A stretch of 28,229 nt of DNA from positions 1 to 28,229 of IMG/VR virus record IMGVR_UViG_3300028176_000016. The stretch is one strand, 5' to 3'. Shown piece after piece: positions 14,474 to 28,229 of the stretch (its first letter is position 1; each line of letters begins with the position of its first letter). The notes below the pieces were generated by a model that ran no database searches, was not told the DNA's origin, and was given only the letters and a program-made list of their open reading frames with translations. Source of the DNA: a virus. A program made the translations under genes and the position numbers.

Positions 14474-15136
14474 ATGATCACAACAAGAGAATTAGATGTT
14501 ATCAGATTAAGATTTGTGGAGAAAAAATCTATGAGGGTCATTGCGACTGTTCTCGGTATTTCAATCGAAAGGACACGCCAACTGCTAAACAAAGCCCTTA
14601 AAGGGATAATGTATGAAGAAGAGGTTGCGAAGTGGAAACGGAAGATAGGGATCGACCACCTCAGCGATGATTTGGTGCAGTTAATTTATACAGTTGACTC
14701 AGAATTAATAGAGAGGGTTAAGAAACTCATTAGGAATTGGGGCATAAGAGAACTCTCTGATTTTCGGAAAATCAATCTTAAAAATCCGCACACAAAAAGC
14801 GTAGGAGTGGCTACGGCCTTAAAGATAAAGCTGGCACTTCTAAAGTTGGGGGTTCCATATGACTTAGACGATTTTGAGACTATCCAACGGAAGCTCGACG
14901 GGTCTGATAATTGCGACATCGGTTTGAAATTACGATTCAAGATTTTTAATAGAGACGGCTTCGCCTGTCAGTATTGCGGACGGAGCCCGCGAAAAGACCC
15001 CAGCGTTATATTACATGCTGACCACATAATACCGATTTCCAAAAAAGGAGGAAATGGAGAGGAAAACATGATTACTGCTTGCCGCGAATGCAACCTGGGG
15101 AAAGCCGACACTACTGTCAACCTGGATTCGGAATAG
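14474..15136 (+). CDS. HNH endonuclease with sigma-region-4-like N-terminus (homing endonuclease)
   Basis: The 220-residue product starts at an ATG behind AGGAGG. Residues ~4-45 look like sigma70 region 4: 'RELDVIRLRFVEKKSMRVIA' followed by 'LGISIERTRQLLNKALKGI', a helix-turn-helix. Residues ~75-130 ('LIERVKKLIRNWGIRELSDF ... ALLKLGVPYD') resemble the helix-hairpin-helix layout of the RNA polymerase alpha C-terminal domain. Residues 165-210 are a complete HNH module: C165/C168, 'HADHIIPISKKGGNGEENMI' and C203/C206 followed by N207. It is on the plus strand, AT-rich, and lies between the early and late modules. It is probably a free-standing homing endonuclease. The HNH class is secure. The alpha-like reading is inference. 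Confidence 0.88.
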   Translation: MITTRELDVIRLRFVEKKSMRVIATVLGISIERTRQLLNKALKGIMYEEEVAKWKRKIGIDHLSDDLVQLIYTVDSELIERVKKLIRNWGIRELSDFRKINLKNPHTKSVGVATALKIKLALLKLGVPYDLDDFETIQRKLDGSDNCDIGLKLRFKIFNRDGFACQYCGRSPRKDPSVILHADHIIPISKKGGNGEENMITACRECNLGKADTTVNLDSE

Positions 15137-19709: not shown

Positions 19710-21053
19710 TTAAAACAGTGATTTACGAGTCCCCCCGTTACCCTTGGGCACCTGGTGAGAAGCCACGACCGCCGCCGGGGTAGCATCCAACCGCTCCTTT
19801 CCCTCCTGGGCCTCATCCGCCGCGGTGACCACCTTGAGCACAATCCCAGCCTCGTTAAAGGCTTTTCCGATCTTCTGCACCGTCAACCCGCCGGCCACTT
19901 CCGCCAGGTTGTCCACCAGTTCAAGGGTCATGGTCATGTCGCCGCCCAGGTCCGGCCCCCAGTCGAGCCACCAGCCGATGCGGACGCCTTTGGTGGTCAC
20001 CAGGGCACAGGGCAGGTCCACAACTGCATCAGGGGACTTTGCCAGTTCCATGAGAGCCGGGAGGGTGATTGCCCTGTCAAGGGGCTCCTGGTCCCCTCCG
20101 TTTCCGGGGTCCTGGTCTTGCGTCCCTGCCGCTGCTGAGGGTTCCGGGTCGGGGGTACTGGGTTGGGTAGCCTGGGTCTTTTTCTTGCCGCCAGTGGGCT
20201 TAGGTGCGGTTGTTTCGATGACCACCCCCTCGGGGTAAAATTCTTCCGCCGTTTCCACCTGCTCTTGTGTCGGTTCCTCATGCGGGGCGACAAGCAGGCG
20301 TCGGGCCTGATCCTCAATCAGGTCCATCCTGATCTTGTGCTCCACGCGTTGCCGAGCCCGTTCATATCCCAACTCAGCCAGCTCACTCTCCGGCCCCCGG
20401 TATTCGATGCTCATGACGAAAACCACCATGGGTTTGCCGGTGGTGGGGATGGTGACCGTTTTAGGCGAGAGCACCAGCATCAGGGGGATACCCGATAGCG
20501 GCCCCCCGGTGATTGCCTTGATGAGCGCCATTGACGACAGGATGGCATTGACGCTGTTAAAGGAGGTCGTCCTAAAAGACCAGACGCCGCCCACCCGGTT
20601 GACGCCTTCGATGAGTACGGACAAAGTTCCGAGGGTCTTGCACTTGTCCTGCTCCTGGTACATGGGGTCTTGCCGCTCACAGGGGCACGGGCACGACTGG
20701 TAGTTCCCATTCTCGCCGGTGAGCCGTGAGGCCGTTTCCCCGTCCCCGGAGCACCAGCACCGGGAGCCTTTGTAGCAGGCATAGCGGGTAAAGAAATTCA
20801 AGTCGATGTCATCGTATAAAAGCCGGATCGGGATTTCGGTGAGTTTGCTGCCCCCGGGGTTGATTTGGGCCATAAGGTCGGTGTCGGGCATGAGGCGCCC
20901 GGCCGCGTCCCTCTGCATGGTCGTAATAACGATGTGGTCGAGCTTCTTGGGCTGGGCGAATTGCTTGCCCTGGGCTGAGGTCTTCATCTCGCCCTTCTCC
21001 CCGATCTTAATCCGGCCTCTCTCTGCCAATCTCGGAATGAGATTTTTAATCAT
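19710..21053 (-). CDS. Gp3-like / recombination-directionality-factor-like protein
   Basis: The 447-residue product starts at ATG 21053, seven bases after GGAGGG. The N-terminal ~230 residues match a phage family annotated as Gp3-like or 'hydrolase or metal-binding': 'IPIRLLYDDIDLNFFTRYAC', cysteine-rich 'YKGSRCWCSGDGE' and 'SCPCPCERQ', then 'GVWSFRTTSFNSVNAILSSM', 'ITGGPLSGIPLMLVLSPKTV'. The clustered cysteines suggest metal binding. The middle is a Pro/Glu/Gln-rich linker (about residues 275-325), followed by an unrelated globular C-terminus. The phiC31 Gp3 member controls serine integrase direction. That role is not shown here, and no integrase is in the window. The first gene after the small zinc proteins, it is clearly an early gene. 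Confidence 0.65.
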   Translation of the reverse strand: MIKNLIPRLAERGRIKIGEKGEMKTSAQGKQFAQPKKLDHIVITTMQRDAAGRLMPDTDLMAQINPGGSKLTEIPIRLLYDDIDLNFFTRYACYKGSRCWCSGDGETASRLTGENGNYQSCPCPCERQDPMYQEQDKCKTLGTLSVLIEGVNRVGGVWSFRTTSFNSVNAILSSMALIKAITGGPLSGIPLMLVLSPKTVTIPTTGKPMVVFVMSIEYRGPESELAELGYERARQRVEHKIRMDLIEDQARRLLVAPHEEPTQEQVETAEEFYPEGVVIETTAPKPTGGKKKTQATQPSTPDPEPSAAAGTQDQDPGNGGDQEPLDRAITLPALMELAKSPDAVVDLPCALVTTKGVRIGWWLDWGPDLGGDMTMTLELVDNLAEVAGGLTVQKIGKAFNEAGIVLKVVTAADEAQEGKERLDATPAAVVASHQVPKGNGGTRKSLF

Positions 21054-21080
21054 CAAAAAACCCTCCTTACCCTTGGGGTA

Positions 21081-23146: not shown

Positions 23147-24103
23147 TTAAACGACTAGGCACATATCGAACTCAGGGTAAATCAGTCCTTCGCTACTAGG
23201 AATCCTACACAAATATTCTGATTGCCATGTTTGTTCTGATACCTGCCTCTTTTTAGTTATCGCATTTTCTATTGTGTAATAGCCGTCTGCATTGACTGCC
23301 CTTCCTTGGCAATCTTCCCACAAATAACATTCAGCGCAAATTCTTCCTTCACATTTTTCTAAAACGTCGAGCAAACACCAATGATATAGCCGATACCCCC
23401 GGCTCGGGGCCTCTTCCACGATCTGCTGCATGAGGCCGTAAGTCTTGTGCATGGTGCTGTAGATGTGCGTGCTGGCCTGGTGGCCGCCCTTGGTCATGGG
23501 GGTGGATAGTGCCGCCTCGTAAATCCTGGGGTCCATCTCATCAATCTCATCGAGCTTGACTTTTTGCGGGTGAGCGCCGCGGACGCTTTTAGGAGAGGCG
23601 GTGAGCAAGTTGATGCTGGAGAAATTCTTGAGCACCATGGACCGGGTAAGCATTTCGCCGTCCTTATCAGATTTCCCCCGGCGCATTTGTTTGGCTGAGG
23701 CCAGCAGGTAGTGGAAACTCTTGTTCACCAGCCCCCAGCCATCCCCGCCCCCGGTCAAGTGCTCATACATCCGGTTGCTCTGCTCCAGGGAGCCGGCCAG
23801 AACCTGCGTAGAGCATCCTGGCTTGAATACCATGTCCAGGAAAGCTACCAACCCGCCTAACAGCGTCTTGCCGCCGCCCCGGTTAGCCCAGCAGATAGCG
23901 TTCAAAGTCCGCTCGAAAAAGGCGTCACAGAGGTATTGGGCGGGGGAGTCGTGGCCAGGGCATACGCGGGCCTGGGGGATGCTGAGGGATTCGCCTGACT
24001 TGCCCCGGAAGAGAGCCTTGACGAATAGCAGGAGTTCGGCGTCGGTGGTGAAGGGGTGCTGGCGATAGTGCTCTATCAGGCGTCGGTCATCGGCGGTGAA
24101 CAT
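23147..24103 (-). CDS. terL (ATPase half): Large terminase, ATPase domain only
   Basis: The 318-residue product has the packaging-motor ATPase elements: Walker A 'WANRGGGKTLLGG' (about 72-84), Walker B 'VKLDEIDEMD' (182-191, D185/E186) and a coupling motif 'STMHKTYG' (216-223). It ends 'GLIYPEFDMCLVV'. In normal terminases YPEFD is the last ATPase-domain motif before the linker to the nuclease domain, so the protein stops exactly at the domain border. The nuclease is a separate gene at 26551-27060. The last ~83 codons (from about 23397) are clearly more AT-rich than the rest. The ribosome site is weak (CTTGCCCC before ATG). The ATPase identity is secure. Confidence 0.92.
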   Translation of the reverse strand: MFTADDRRLIEHYRQHPFTTDAELLLFVKALFRGKSGESLSIPQARVCPGHDSPAQYLCDAFFERTLNAICWANRGGGKTLLGGLVAFLDMVFKPGCSTQVLAGSLEQSNRMYEHLTGGGDGWGLVNKSFHYLLASAKQMRRGKSDKDGEMLTRSMVLKNFSSINLLTASPKSVRGAHPQKVKLDEIDEMDPRIYEAALSTPMTKGGHQASTHIYSTMHKTYGLMQQIVEEAPSRGYRLYHWCLLDVLEKCEGRICAECYLWEDCQGRAVNADGYYTIENAITKKRQVSEQTWQSEYLCRIPSSEGLIYPEFDMCLVV

Positions 24104-24111
24104 GGGGCAAG

Positions 24112-24453
24112 CTATCCGGTCTCAGCCGGTTCCTTCTTTTCCTTCGGCAGCTTCATTTTCAATCCGAATCCGACCAGGCCCTCAGCCCGGAAATACCTCT
24201 CTACCGAAGGTGCCAGGCCGCCATCGGGGGTGATGATCCCGTGGGCCTTGAGCCGGTCGAAGCCGGCGAGGGCAACTCCGGCGGGCACGTCGGCCAGGTA
24301 CGCCAGGCGGGTGAAGTCGAACCGGATGGTGGCCCAGGGGTCATTGGCAGATTCCGGGGTAGTCCCCTGGACATCATCCCTCTCCACCGCGGGCCAGGCG
24401 AGCGCCAGCCGGTAGAGGGCGGGGGATGACCGGATCAGGGCTATTTTGCGCAT
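24112..24453 (-). CDS. Winged-helix-like protein upstream of terminase ATPase
   Basis: The 113-residue protein begins 'MRKIALIRSSPALYRLALAW' and has a middle part 'FDFTRLAYLADVPAGVALAG' followed by 'FDRLKAHGIITPDGGLAPSV', the rhythm of a winged helix: a helix-turn-helix (A-x-L-A-x-V-P-x-G-V) then a short wing with D-G-G. It could bind DNA or assist packaging, as its stop lies eight bases before the terminase ATPase ATG. Its own ATG lies within the last codons of the AT-rich methyltransferase-like gene. The fold is inferred by eye. Confidence 0.65.
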   Translation of the reverse strand: MRKIALIRSSPALYRLALAWPAVERDDVQGTTPESANDPWATIRFDFTRLAYLADVPAGVALAGFDRLKAHGIITPDGGLAPSVERYFRAEGLVGFGLKMKLPKEKKEPAETG

Positions 24454-25247
24454 GGGGCAAAACCTTTAATATTGTTTATGCGCATAGTGCGCCAGGCTTT
24501 TAGTGCGGCCAGTTTACATCCAATATCCCTGTCTTTAATTACATTTGTTGGGCCTAAAGGATAGTATTTAAAAATAGCTGAATCCATGATAGTCTTTTTA
24601 TTTTTACTCTTATAGCTGTTATAAATAGGCACCATATTTTTAACCATGGCATCAATAACTATATCTTCAATGAAATACGTTATATTCGAACCGTGATATT
24701 GTTGAAGCATCCATTGATAATAATGCCAAGTTAAATGAGTAAAGAATTGGAAGCCACGGTGTTTAAATAAATTATTAATCCCCACCTCTTCTGTAAATTG
24801 TTTACTATATAAGCCACCAACTTGATCTCTTCCTCTCATTAAATTAATATATATTACGGTTGGCGACGCTAAACCAGTGGAATCAAAGCAGGACGTCATA
24901 AAATCTTTAGCTACTTTTCTGGTTAATCCTGAACATAAATCAGCTATAATAATATCTATTGGTGGGTTACCGGTCCAATTTCTAATAAAATCTACTATAT
25001 CAATGCATATAGCCGGTCTTTTTAATTGCTTTATTTTGTTTACTTTCATAACATCTGCATCTATGGCTATTAAATTGCAATCTTTAAACCCCTTTTGTAT
25101 TGCTATCTCTCTGTCTATATCATCTGGGCCTGCCAAATATGCTACTATTAATTCTTGTGGCTTTTTATGCGACATGCGAATTATTTGATTCCATGCCCAC
25201 CTACGATGATTGTTCTTTGTGCCGTATTTATAACAATCGAGACCCAT
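24441..25247 (-). CDS. Rossmann-fold, methyltransferase-like protein (AT-rich cassette)
   Basis: The 268-residue protein is much more AT-rich than most flanking genes. Strand ends expected of a class I methyltransferase are visible: 'LIVAYLAGPDDIDREIAIQK' (motif I region), 'NLIAIDADVMKVNKIKQ' (acidic end of strand 2), 'AICIDIVDFI' and 'IDIIIADLCSGLTRKV' (motif IV region). The usual GxGxG is replaced by AGPDD, so SAM binding is not certain. It follows the 53-aa gene by three bases and its end overlaps the winged-helix gene start. ParB-domain proteins in phages are often followed by DNA methyltransferases, so a DNA-modifying role is possible. No NPPY or PC catalytic motif of DNA methylases is seen. 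Confidence 0.55.
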   Translation of the reverse strand: MGLDCYKYGTKNNHRRWAWNQIIRMSHKKPQELIVAYLAGPDDIDREIAIQKGFKDCNLIAIDADVMKVNKIKQLKRPAICIDIVDFIRNWTGNPPIDIIIADLCSGLTRKVAKDFMTSCFDSTGLASPTVIYINLMRGRDQVGGLYSKQFTEEVGINNLFKHRGFQFFTHLTWHYYQWMLQQYHGSNITYFIEDIVIDAMVKNMVPIYNSYKSKNKKTIMDSAIFKYYPLGPTNVIKDRDIGCKLAALKAWRTMRINNIKGFAPCAK

Positions 25248-26550: not shown

Positions 26551-27060
26551 TTAGCGCCCCGTCCACCCCTTAAGGAAATATCGAACTGCATCACAGCTAT
26601 GATGCGCCCCGATCCCCGCCTGGTGCTCCCGGTAGTCCCGCCATTCCTGGAAAAGCCGCTTCGGACAATGCCTAGAAAAAACCAGCCCCGATTCGCCCCG
26701 GGTCATCTGCGCTGCCTTGAGCCATTGCTTGACGAGTTCATGTCCGGCGTCTACCCGGCCCGGTGCCCCCAGGATATCTACGCCGAAAATTTGGGAGTAG
26801 GCGCGTAAGGCCTCCGGCTTTGAGACATCCCCCCATCCCCCCACCGGCTGCGCCAGGGGACCGTACCCCCGCTCCTGGTGGATGGCCAGGGCTATCTTTG
26901 CGTTTTCTTCATTCGTCCGGGCCGCCTGGAAATGGGCGAACAGGACCGTCAACCGCTCGCTGTCGGGGCTGGCCTGGACCCAGACGGTCGCGTTATTCCA
27001 AAAACCAAAATCAATGGCGAGATATAAATCATGGCCTGGCACATACTTGTCGTCTTTCAT
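26551..27060 (-). CDS. terL (nuclease half): Large terminase, nuclease domain only (5' end restored by HNH element)
   Basis: The 169-residue product has the RNase H-like terminase nuclease motifs: 'LYLAIDFGFWNNATVWV' with catalytic D17, an acidic residue in 'VGGWGDVSKPEALRAY' (D78) and the terminal 'HHSCDAVRYFLKGW' (D157), which matches the (N)DHAxDALRY motif of the family. It cuts concatemeric DNA at packaging start and end. Codons 1-23 are AT-rich and come with the HNH element. From codon 24 the sequence is GC-rich resident DNA. The ATG lies 30 bases upstream of the HNH stop, so translation is coupled. The ATPase half is a separate gene about 2.4 kb downstream. A weak AGGA ribosome site is present. 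Confidence 0.88.
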   Translation of the reverse strand: MKDDKYVPGHDLYLAIDFGFWNNATVWVQASPDSERLTVLFAHFQAARTNEENAKIALAIHQERGYGPLAQPVGGWGDVSKPEALRAYSQIFGVDILGAPGRVDAGHELVKQWLKAAQMTRGESGLVFSRHCPKRLFQEWRDYREHQAGIGAHHSCDAVRYFLKGWTGR

Positions 27061-27619
27061 TGGCATTTTTCCTATTGTATTCATTGACGCATGACCTATG
27101 CCAAGCGTTATGATCCCTGGTATACATGTTATTTGGATCATCATACTTCCCGCAAACAAAGCATTTGCGCCACGATTTGTTTCCACATGCCAAAAAAGCT
27201 CTTAATCTTTTTTCAATAAATCTGTGATATTTTTCATCCTGACAAATAACATGATTTCCTTTACTGTTGTCGTTTTTTATGCCATTGGCATGATGAACAA
27301 CCGCTCCCGGGGGCAAAGGTTTCCCCAATGCTTTCTCAGCGATTAAGATATGCTCATAAGCATAGCCATTGATGCTGTGCGGATGCGTTTTGTTCATTAA
27401 TCTTGGGTATCTATTTTGATGAATCCTTCCACCAGCCCACTTCCAATTATTTGTTCCCCTGGAATGATGGCCATGAATATATTTATTCGGGACGCCTTTG
27501 CTGGCTCCTTTTCTGGTGCTTGATGCCAATTTAGTTTTGCCGCCACAACCACAGGCGCAGTCGCCTGAGGGAATTAATTTGACAGGAATCCCATTTATGA
27601 TAATTTCGGAATAGCTCAT
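27029..27619 (-). CDS. HNH homing endonuclease inserted in terminase nuclease gene
   Basis: The 196-residue product starts at ATG 27619 behind GAGGAGG. It contains 'GDCACGCGGKTKLASSTRKG', a frequent N-terminal cysteine motif in phage HNH enzymes, then 'YAYEHILIAEKALGKPLPPG', the HNH core 'AVVHHANGIKNDNSKGNHVI' (H109/H110, N118) with H132, and a zinc-binding tail (C145, C153, C156, C177; 'SWRKCFVCGKYDDPNN'). The gene is AT-rich, has its own consensus promoter, and lies between the broken and the restored 5' end of the terminase nuclease gene. Its last ten codons overlap the restored start in another frame. This layout is that of a mobile, intronless homing gene. Confidence 0.93.
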   Translation of the reverse strand: MSYSEIIINGIPVKLIPSGDCACGCGGKTKLASSTRKGASKGVPNKYIHGHHSRGTNNWKWAGGRIHQNRYPRLMNKTHPHSINGYAYEHILIAEKALGKPLPPGAVVHHANGIKNDNSKGNHVICQDEKYHRFIEKRLRAFLACGNKSWRKCFVCGKYDDPNNMYTRDHNAWHRSCVNEYNRKNANERRQVCARP

Positions 27620-27692
27620 GACCGATCCTCCTCGATAGGATGGTTTTGGGTTAGGGCCTTGCGGGTGTCTCACCACCTTCAAGGCTCGTTTC

Positions 27693-27721
27693 ATATTATG
27701 GATATTCGGCTGAATTGTCAA
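27693..27721 (-). promoter_or_regulatory. Consensus sigma70 promoter of the inserted HNH gene
   Basis: On the minus strand TTGACA (27721-27716) and TAATAT (27698-27693) are separated by exactly 17 bases. The -35 box overlaps the premature stop that ends the broken nuclease fragment, so the promoter arrived with the insertion. It should drive the HNH gene and the restored nuclease gene. Confidence 0.85.
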
Positions 27722-27786
27722 GATATTTCCCTCAAGTCCAGCGCCAGGAACAACGGCCAACCGGGGGTGTAGCGGTCATCGGTCAT
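27718..27786 (-). pseudogene. Broken 5' end of the terminase nuclease gene
   Basis: ATG 27786 shares bases with the zinc ribbon stop (ATGA). The frame reads MTDDRYTPGWPLFLALDL, then four unrelated codons and a stop. The 18 residues align without gaps with MKDDKYVPGHDLYLAIDF at the start of the intact nuclease gene at 27060: 10 identical and 4 conservative. At DNA level 27 of 54 bases match. The old copy has 34 G+C of 54, the new copy 21. It is thus the original, displaced start of the resident gene, cut directly after the codon following the catalytic Asp. Confidence 0.88.
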
Positions 27787-27965
27787 GGAGCCTCGTTAAT
27801 CTTCCGGATCGCCTGTCTCCGCCGCCACTCCATCTCCCGAGTCTGATTCGGGGCCGGCTTGGGTTGACCAAAGACCCTGCCGCACCTCGGGCATTCGATA
27901 CGGATAGCACCTTCAAGCAGATTGAGCCTGGCGCCGCAGGGACAGCAGAGCTTTTTGCGTCTCAT
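27783..27965 (-). CDS. Zinc ribbon protein, 60 aa
   Basis: The product begins 'MRRKKLCCPCGARLNLLEGA' and continues 'IECPRCGRVFGQPKPAPNQ', with two CxxC-type pairs (C7/C10 or C8/C10, and C25/C28), a Com-like zinc ribbon, then a basic tail. The start ATG overlaps the upstream stop (ATGA) and follows GAGGTGG. Its own stop overlaps the old start of the terminase nuclease gene (ATGA). In the uninterrupted operon it was therefore translationally coupled to the nuclease. It might bind DNA or regulate translation. The role is unknown. Confidence 0.8.
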   Translation of the reverse strand: MRRKKLCCPCGARLNLLEGAIRIECPRCGRVFGQPKPAPNQTREMEWRRRQAIRKINEAP

Positions 27966-28225
27966 AACCACCTCACCCGCGGCTGGACTTCCATCGCCAA
28001 CCCCAGTACCAGAAAATGCAGCGCCCCGATTCCGAAATTATCCATTTCTAGAGGCTTATCTCGGAACGGCTTCCTGGGGTCTTTGTCCGGCATCCGATAT
28101 CGAAAAAACTCTTGCACTGTCTTTGAACATTCCTGAGAGAAACTGATCCCCCCTTGAACAGCCTTGAGTAGCAGTTCCTTTTTAACCGGGTCATGCTCCC
28201 CCTTGAGTACCGCCGCTATCGTCAT
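27962..28225 (-). CDS. Hypothetical protein, 87 aa
   Basis: The ORF begins at ATG 28225, four bases from the window edge, so an upstream extension cannot be excluded. It reads 'MTIAAVLKGEHDPVKKELLL', then 'GGISFSQECSKTVQEFFRYR', then 'DNFGIGALHFLVLGLAMEVQ' near the end, a moderately hydrophobic helix. The stop overlaps the zinc ribbon start (ATGA), so it is coupled. No function is recognised. Confidence 0.6.
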   Translation of the reverse strand: MTIAAVLKGEHDPVKKELLLKAVQGGISFSQECSKTVQEFFRYRMPDKDPRKPFRDKPLEMDNFGIGALHFLVLGLAMEVQPRVRWL

Positions 28226-28229
28226 TGAT

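Follow-up and report, generated by a model that had tools for sequence, protein, structure and literature searches.

A gene for a probable terminase-type nuclease in a viral DNA stretch of 28,229 nucleotides (IMG/VR record IMGVR_UViG_3300028176_000016, referred to here in its full length as the window) is interrupted near its 5' end by an AT-rich element that encodes an HNH endonuclease, and is restored by a foreign version of the codons displaced by the interruption. This arrangement had been described in an initial annotation made from the sequence alone and, as an observation, is confirmed as a whole.

The interrupted nuclease locus

The features of the locus, in the order in which they are read, are the following.

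27783-27971, minus strand: zinc-ribbon gene upstream, its stop overlapping the resident nuclease start (ATGA)
27733-27786, minus strand: remnant, resident nuclease 5' end MTDDRYTPGWPLFLALDL, intact in relatives
27733 to about 27008, minus strand: inserted element, about 726 bp, AT-rich, its left end placed by comparison with locus L004
27693-27721, minus strand: promoter-like TTGACA-N17-TAATAT, present in L004 too, upstream of a related HNH gene
27643-27690, minus strand: leader hairpin GCCTTG-aa-GGTG...CACC-cg-CAAGGC, with one compensatory T-A to C-G pair in L004
27029-27619, minus strand: HNH endonuclease gene (HNH_3, 196 aa), ATG at 27619, stop at 27029, motif intact
27007-27060, minus strand: replacement of the 18 displaced codons, MKDDKYVPGHDLYLAIDF, foreign and respelled
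26551-27060, minus strand: restored nuclease gene, 169 aa, ATG at 27060, stop at 26551; RNase H-fold, probably terminase-type

The remnant ORF (27786-27718) reads MTDDRYTPGWPLFLALDL followed by REIS, which is unrelated sequence, and then by a stop at 27718. It bears out the earlier description of a resident ORF that starts at 27786 and is cut at an Asp codon, the interruption lying directly after codon 17, which encodes this Asp, an invariant one (27738-27736). The left junction is placed at 27734/27733 because homology with the L004 element begins there, at GAG, and the right junction lies somewhere from about 27008 to 26991; the resulting length is close to the 725 bp or so first given. The 3' end of the HNH gene overlaps the restored ORF by 32 bp, so that the first 32 bp of the replacement also encode the HNH C-terminus. 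The replacement 5' end continues in frame into the resident nuclease gene, giving the uninterrupted restored ORF that had been claimed. A second virus contig from another record, 99.95% identical, shows the same arrangement with the same junctions.

Since the 3' end of the insert supplies the displaced codons, the reading frame of the target gene is made whole again with neither intron nor intein. An Rfam search of 26900-27990, up to E=10, returned no intron family and no family for the leader hairpin, and as the search gave nothing credible and the restored ORF begins with a start codon of its own, the insert is not a group I or group II intron. Nor is it an intein, because a stop follows the remnant and the HNH and nuclease are in different frames. 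On this point, too, the initial annotation holds.

The HNH gene and its leader

The HNH protein matches PF13392 (HNH_3) with 30.0 bits against a cut-off of 24.8. Residues H109, H110, N118 and H132 are invariant across 14 relatives, and the C-terminus forms a Cys/His zinc-ribbon-like tail. The gene is preceded by an AT-rich leader in which the promoter-like element is followed by the hairpin and a ribosome-binding site. The element had been called a consensus promoter; it is present but matches at 10 of 12 positions, and because one to two matches of that quality are expected by chance in the region, it is conservation in L004 and not the scan that argues for a promoter. A search of all viral contigs for the leader hairpin found it only in L004 and the window's twin; a leader of this kind is thus no general trait of the HNH family.

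Two other genes in the window are of note. A second HNH gene (14474-15136, plus strand), with an N-terminal sigma-70 region-4-like domain, lies between the portal and HU-like genes on the opposite strand. An AT-rich ORF of 268 aa (24441-25247, minus strand; 29-38% GC) lies in GC-rich surroundings and matches no known family; it runs 13 bp into the start of the gene that follows, an overlap much like that of the HNH gene, and may be another insert of the HNH-element kind.

The target gene

The restored protein has no Pfam match and a tblastn search with it against cultured phages gave no match. PHROG_5653 (terminase large subunit) is matched by seven of eight members of the nuclease family (best E 7.7e-5). 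The AlphaFold model obtained for the nuclease, with a pLDDT of 49.6, is poor and too weak to stand alone, its top matches among solved structures being the large terminase nuclease domains of G20c, P74-26 and SPP1 (E 3e-3 to 9e-3). The Asp at the insertion point had been described as catalytic; D17 is indeed invariant in the family, alongside D78 and D157, and it is this invariance that suggests a catalytic role. We conclude with moderate confidence that the gene encodes a terminase nuclease apart from its ATPase. The terminase ATPase (23147-24103, minus strand) and the nuclease (26551-27060, minus strand) appear to be separate genes about 2.4 kb apart, the nuclease coming first.

A second terminase-nuclease-like protein (PHROG_6672) is encoded just upstream (27962-28229, minus strand; full length in L001:1512-2099), with a YIGIKWG motif that has Lys at the position of the other gene's conserved Asp. 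The interrupted gene had been called an essential packaging gene, which is likely, but because a second nuclease-like gene lies just upstream its essentiality is uncertain.

Empty-site relatives and a likely donor form

The initial annotation had suggested a search for relatives with an empty site, and these exist. An intact nuclease gene without an HNH gene is present in L002, L003, L007 and the MAG loci L058-L060, and further genomes of the same class carry intact nuclease relatives with no HNH nearby. Because the relatives carry the intact gene, the upstream 22-codon ORF is a gene fragment and not a separate peptide. In the HNH-free phages this peptide is not seen as a separate ORF, and its residues are those with which the intact nuclease begins; the conservation as a separate peptide that had been named as counter-evidence is thus not seen in empty-site relatives.

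L004 is a diverged relative in which the HNH is 46% identical to that of the window and has the same promoter and hairpin leader. Here the HNH gene ends right at the start of an intact AT-rich nuclease gene and there is no remnant. The left ends of the two elements agree within a few bases (GAGGGAAATATCTTGACA in the window, GAGAGTAATTACTTGACT in L004). From these sequences the L004 arrangement is likely to be the donor form. On the contig that holds the empty-site locus L007, a related HNH gene is found elsewhere (L014:3980-4450) and ends 8 bp inside the start of a homologue of the window gene at 19710-21056.

Origin of the two 5' ends

The remnant and the replacement are identical at 10 of 18 residues and 27 of 54 bases, as had been counted before, and eight of the nine non-Met codons that they share are spelled differently. 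The GC content is 63% in the remnant, 38% in codons 1-23 of the restored gene and 63% beyond. Over the 30 bases before the Asp codon the remnant matches empty-site relatives at 21-22 positions, whereas it matches the replacement at only 14. Because the remnant resembles the empty-site relatives and the replacement does not, the remnant is the resident end and the replacement is foreign, in agreement with the earlier proposal that it is a homologue from elsewhere and not a fresh duplication. The respelling in the window is, however, inseparable from ordinary divergence, because the nearest empty-site relatives of its nuclease gene reach no more than about 60-74% identity.

Recurrence in other genes and phages

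Duplicated 5' ends were scored by comparing every start near each HNH gene with the start of the following gene at 78 distinct HNH loci; this start-codon-anchored test was used in place of an earlier test by gapped local alignment, which was weak. Among 923 mismatched pairs, which served as the null, the median score was 20, the 99th percentile 33 and the maximum 43. The window scored 58, so that the likeness of its two 5' ends is greater than chance would give, and L116 scored 94, with L027 and L044 each at a P of about 0.002, and the majority of the 78 loci showed no 5' duplication detectable by the anchored test.

At L044 the HNH ORF shares the start codon of a gene for a 5'-3' exonuclease, from which it departs after MNPALVD. 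The remnant is identical to the empty site of L200/L201 at 21 of 21 bases, the restored exonuclease begins MNPALVDGDPVCYIC, and beyond the replacement identity to the empty-site gene resumes, at 94%. Nine of 11 synonymous codons are changed within the first 15 codons, against 16 of 227 in the other 245 codons compared (Fisher p=1.7e-8). At L116 the HNH gene interrupts a TerL gene, which overlaps terS at its 5' end and of which intact relatives were found; remnant and replacement agree at 24 of 30 aligned residues, and 15 of the 24 codons for these are respelled. The architecture probably recurs in NinB-like genes, which hold the HNH gene of L027 and, less surely, that of L038; respelling in L027 is slight (two of six within the first eight codons). 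L050 (score 33, P=0.014) and L038, which shares FVG only, are suggestive as further cases.

The arrangement is also found in cultured phages. In Pseudomonas phage P54 the HNH gene occupies the start codon of an exonuclease gene of the PD-(D/E)XK type, which after the HNH gene begins MTVY followed by TVRASSWG, where AUS531phi, PP9W and phi297 have MQTI followed by TVRASSWG; zero bases have been lost at the site. In Corynebacterium phage StAB the HNH gene sits on a helicase start, Stiles and Dina being empty-site sisters, and the helicase begins VKFS before PHDYQ as against MQFE before PHDYQ in Dina. The replacements of P54 and StAB are of four codons only. The StAB insert also gives a new ending to the upstream VRR-NUC gene, which overlaps the helicase start (L151:1255-1274), the endings read off the sequences being IHAIRTA-stop in Dina and IHAIRNT-stop in StAB. 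The insertion point is exact in the filled and empty pairs L044/L200, P54/AUS531phi and StAB/Dina, and in two cases the insertion falls exactly behind an Asp belonging to a conserved nuclease motif. At other annotated HNH neighbours no clear replacement 5' end was seen, namely in Comrade, phiH, Zitch, Thibault, PSTNGR2lys and ctDrO704. Judged by these comparisons, the architecture recurs with relatives of the window HNH in unrelated phages, cultured ones included.

Relatives of the HNH in L017, L018 and L016 end on the starts of SbcC/RecF-like ATPase genes, in which a Walker motif lies close to the 5' end, and on that of a polymerase/exonuclease-like gene with an IDCETTGLN motif. Conserved 5' motifs may be general targets of these HNHs.

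Alternative explanations

It could be supposed that an intergenic HNH gene and the neighbouring nuclease 5' end were moved passively, as a module, by illegitimate recombination, the duplicate being a by-product and the site no target of the HNH. The mosaic nature of phage genomes would favour such an exchange, as would the position of the L004 HNH gene between two genes with no remnant, the lack of a duplication at most HNH relatives and the usually large distance between the genes of T4 free-standing endonucleases and the sites that these enzymes cut (PMC2988022). This explanation nevertheless seems unlikely, if still worth carrying, since clean insertions of this architecture occur in four or more unrelated genes, twice exactly after a nuclease-motif Asp, and since in L044 the respelling is limited to the insert side and then gives way to 94% identity, a pattern that fits targeted insertion better than random mosaicism.

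The remaining explanations were rejected. The flanking of the HNH gene by two copies of one 5' end could reflect a tandem duplication of the resident end, with divergence and later insertion of the HNH gene between the copies, but this is very improbable given the GC contents of 63% and 38%, the match at only 27 of 54 bases, the grouping of the remnant and not the replacement with empty-site relatives, and an L044 remnant that is unchanged beside a respelled replacement. Even less credence is given to the idea that the upstream 22-codon ORF is a separate functional peptide and that there was no insertion into a gene; it retains a start codon and a stop, but in all empty-site relatives its sequence is the intact nuclease N-terminus. 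We regard an assembly chimera of two phages as just as improbable, the abrupt GC shifts at both junctions notwithstanding, because the junctions are identical in a contig from another record, the HNH and nuclease ORFs are both intact and cultured phages have the same architecture.

Comparison with known systems

The closest precedent, at the opposite end of the gene, is provided by mobile endonuclease ORFs of fungal mitochondria with foreign carboxy-terminal duplicates, described for Allomyces atp6 and for Glomus atp6, atp9, cox2 and nad3 (PMC3630166). There, too, a gene is interrupted by an ORF for an endonuclease, which supplies a divergent version of the lost end from a foreign source, so that a hybrid gene results and the native end is left as a remnant. 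The fungal ORFs concern the 3' end, are mitochondrial and encode LAGLIDADG or GIY-YIG enzymes, whereas the phage type concerns the 5' end with its start codon and has an HNH stop that overlaps the restored start.

The Seg and Mob free-standing homing endonucleases of T4-like phages, which undergo intronless homing, likewise have no intron or intein and adjoin conserved genes; they are inherited through repair and co-conversion, and the Mob class combines an HNH with a separate binding domain (PMC2988022). The T4 free-standing enzymes are, however, encoded between genes and cut at a distance of hundreds of bp or more, and where mobE and mobA split a gene they do so without repair, which in the window is provided by the replacement 5' end. 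An HNH insertion within a methylase gene of mycobacteriophage ShiLan (PMC11855218) is similarly placed in a phage gene without intron or intein, and the ShiLan and P54 HNHs are about 43% identical over approximately 75 aa. The ShiLan HNH is read through in frame within the methylase, while that of the window is read in a separate frame, the target gene beginning afresh with a new start codon. In the synthetic gene drives HomeR and Cleave-and-Rescue (PMC7968924, PMC7951863) the gene disrupted by a nuclease is likewise rescued by a respelled version linked to that nuclease. The drives use engineered Cas9, whereas the window element is natural and apparently protein-guided and restores only the 5' end; the likeness is an analogy of working and not one of kinship. 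No phage case of 5' replacement was found in the open-access literature, and priority is uncertain, subscription papers being outside this scope.

A proposed mechanism and its meaning

We consider it quite probable, from the comparisons above, that the window insert is a homing element of the free-standing HNH kind, which enters genes at conserved motifs close to their 5' ends and brings along a rescue version of that end in altered spelling. The suggestion that it repairs its own damage in this way is supported by the foreign 5' end, the donor-type L004 and the independent cases. The HNH would nick or cut the empty site close to the insertion point, and repair from a co-infecting carrier would copy the HNH gene and the replacement together. 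Respelling would keep the restored gene from being cut again and would also block loss of the HNH gene via recombination between the two 5' copies. The spelling of the restored gene should stay different, because otherwise the target site would be recreated and a direct repeat with the remnant formed; the pattern of respelling appears to fit this expectation, strongly so in L044. The overlap between the HNH 3' end and the restored start would tie the rescue to the drive, and translation of the two genes is probably coupled through it. The first transfer into the window lineage was probably from an L004-like phage, by homologous joining within the nuclease gene on the right side and end joining ahead of the HNH promoter on the left.

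More tentatively, with slightly greater doubt than belief, we suggest a natural class of phage 'home-and-rescue' elements, whose HNHs would target conserved catalytic-motif DNA where important genes begin. Each would carry along a 5' end that is synonymously respelled and resistant to cleavage, the difference being maintained by selection both against cutting of the element itself and against recombination with the remnant, and the class would extend over several target genes and host groups.

To our knowledge, selfish endonucleases in coding genes are thought to require an intron or intein, or else to leave the gene split. The loci described here point to another solution, recurring in phages including cultured ones, in which the insert supplies a replacement 5' end. 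Such elements would be a natural counterpart to engineered recoded-rescue drives; the model predicts their cleavage sites to within a few bases and may account for some of the N-terminal mosaicism among phage genes.
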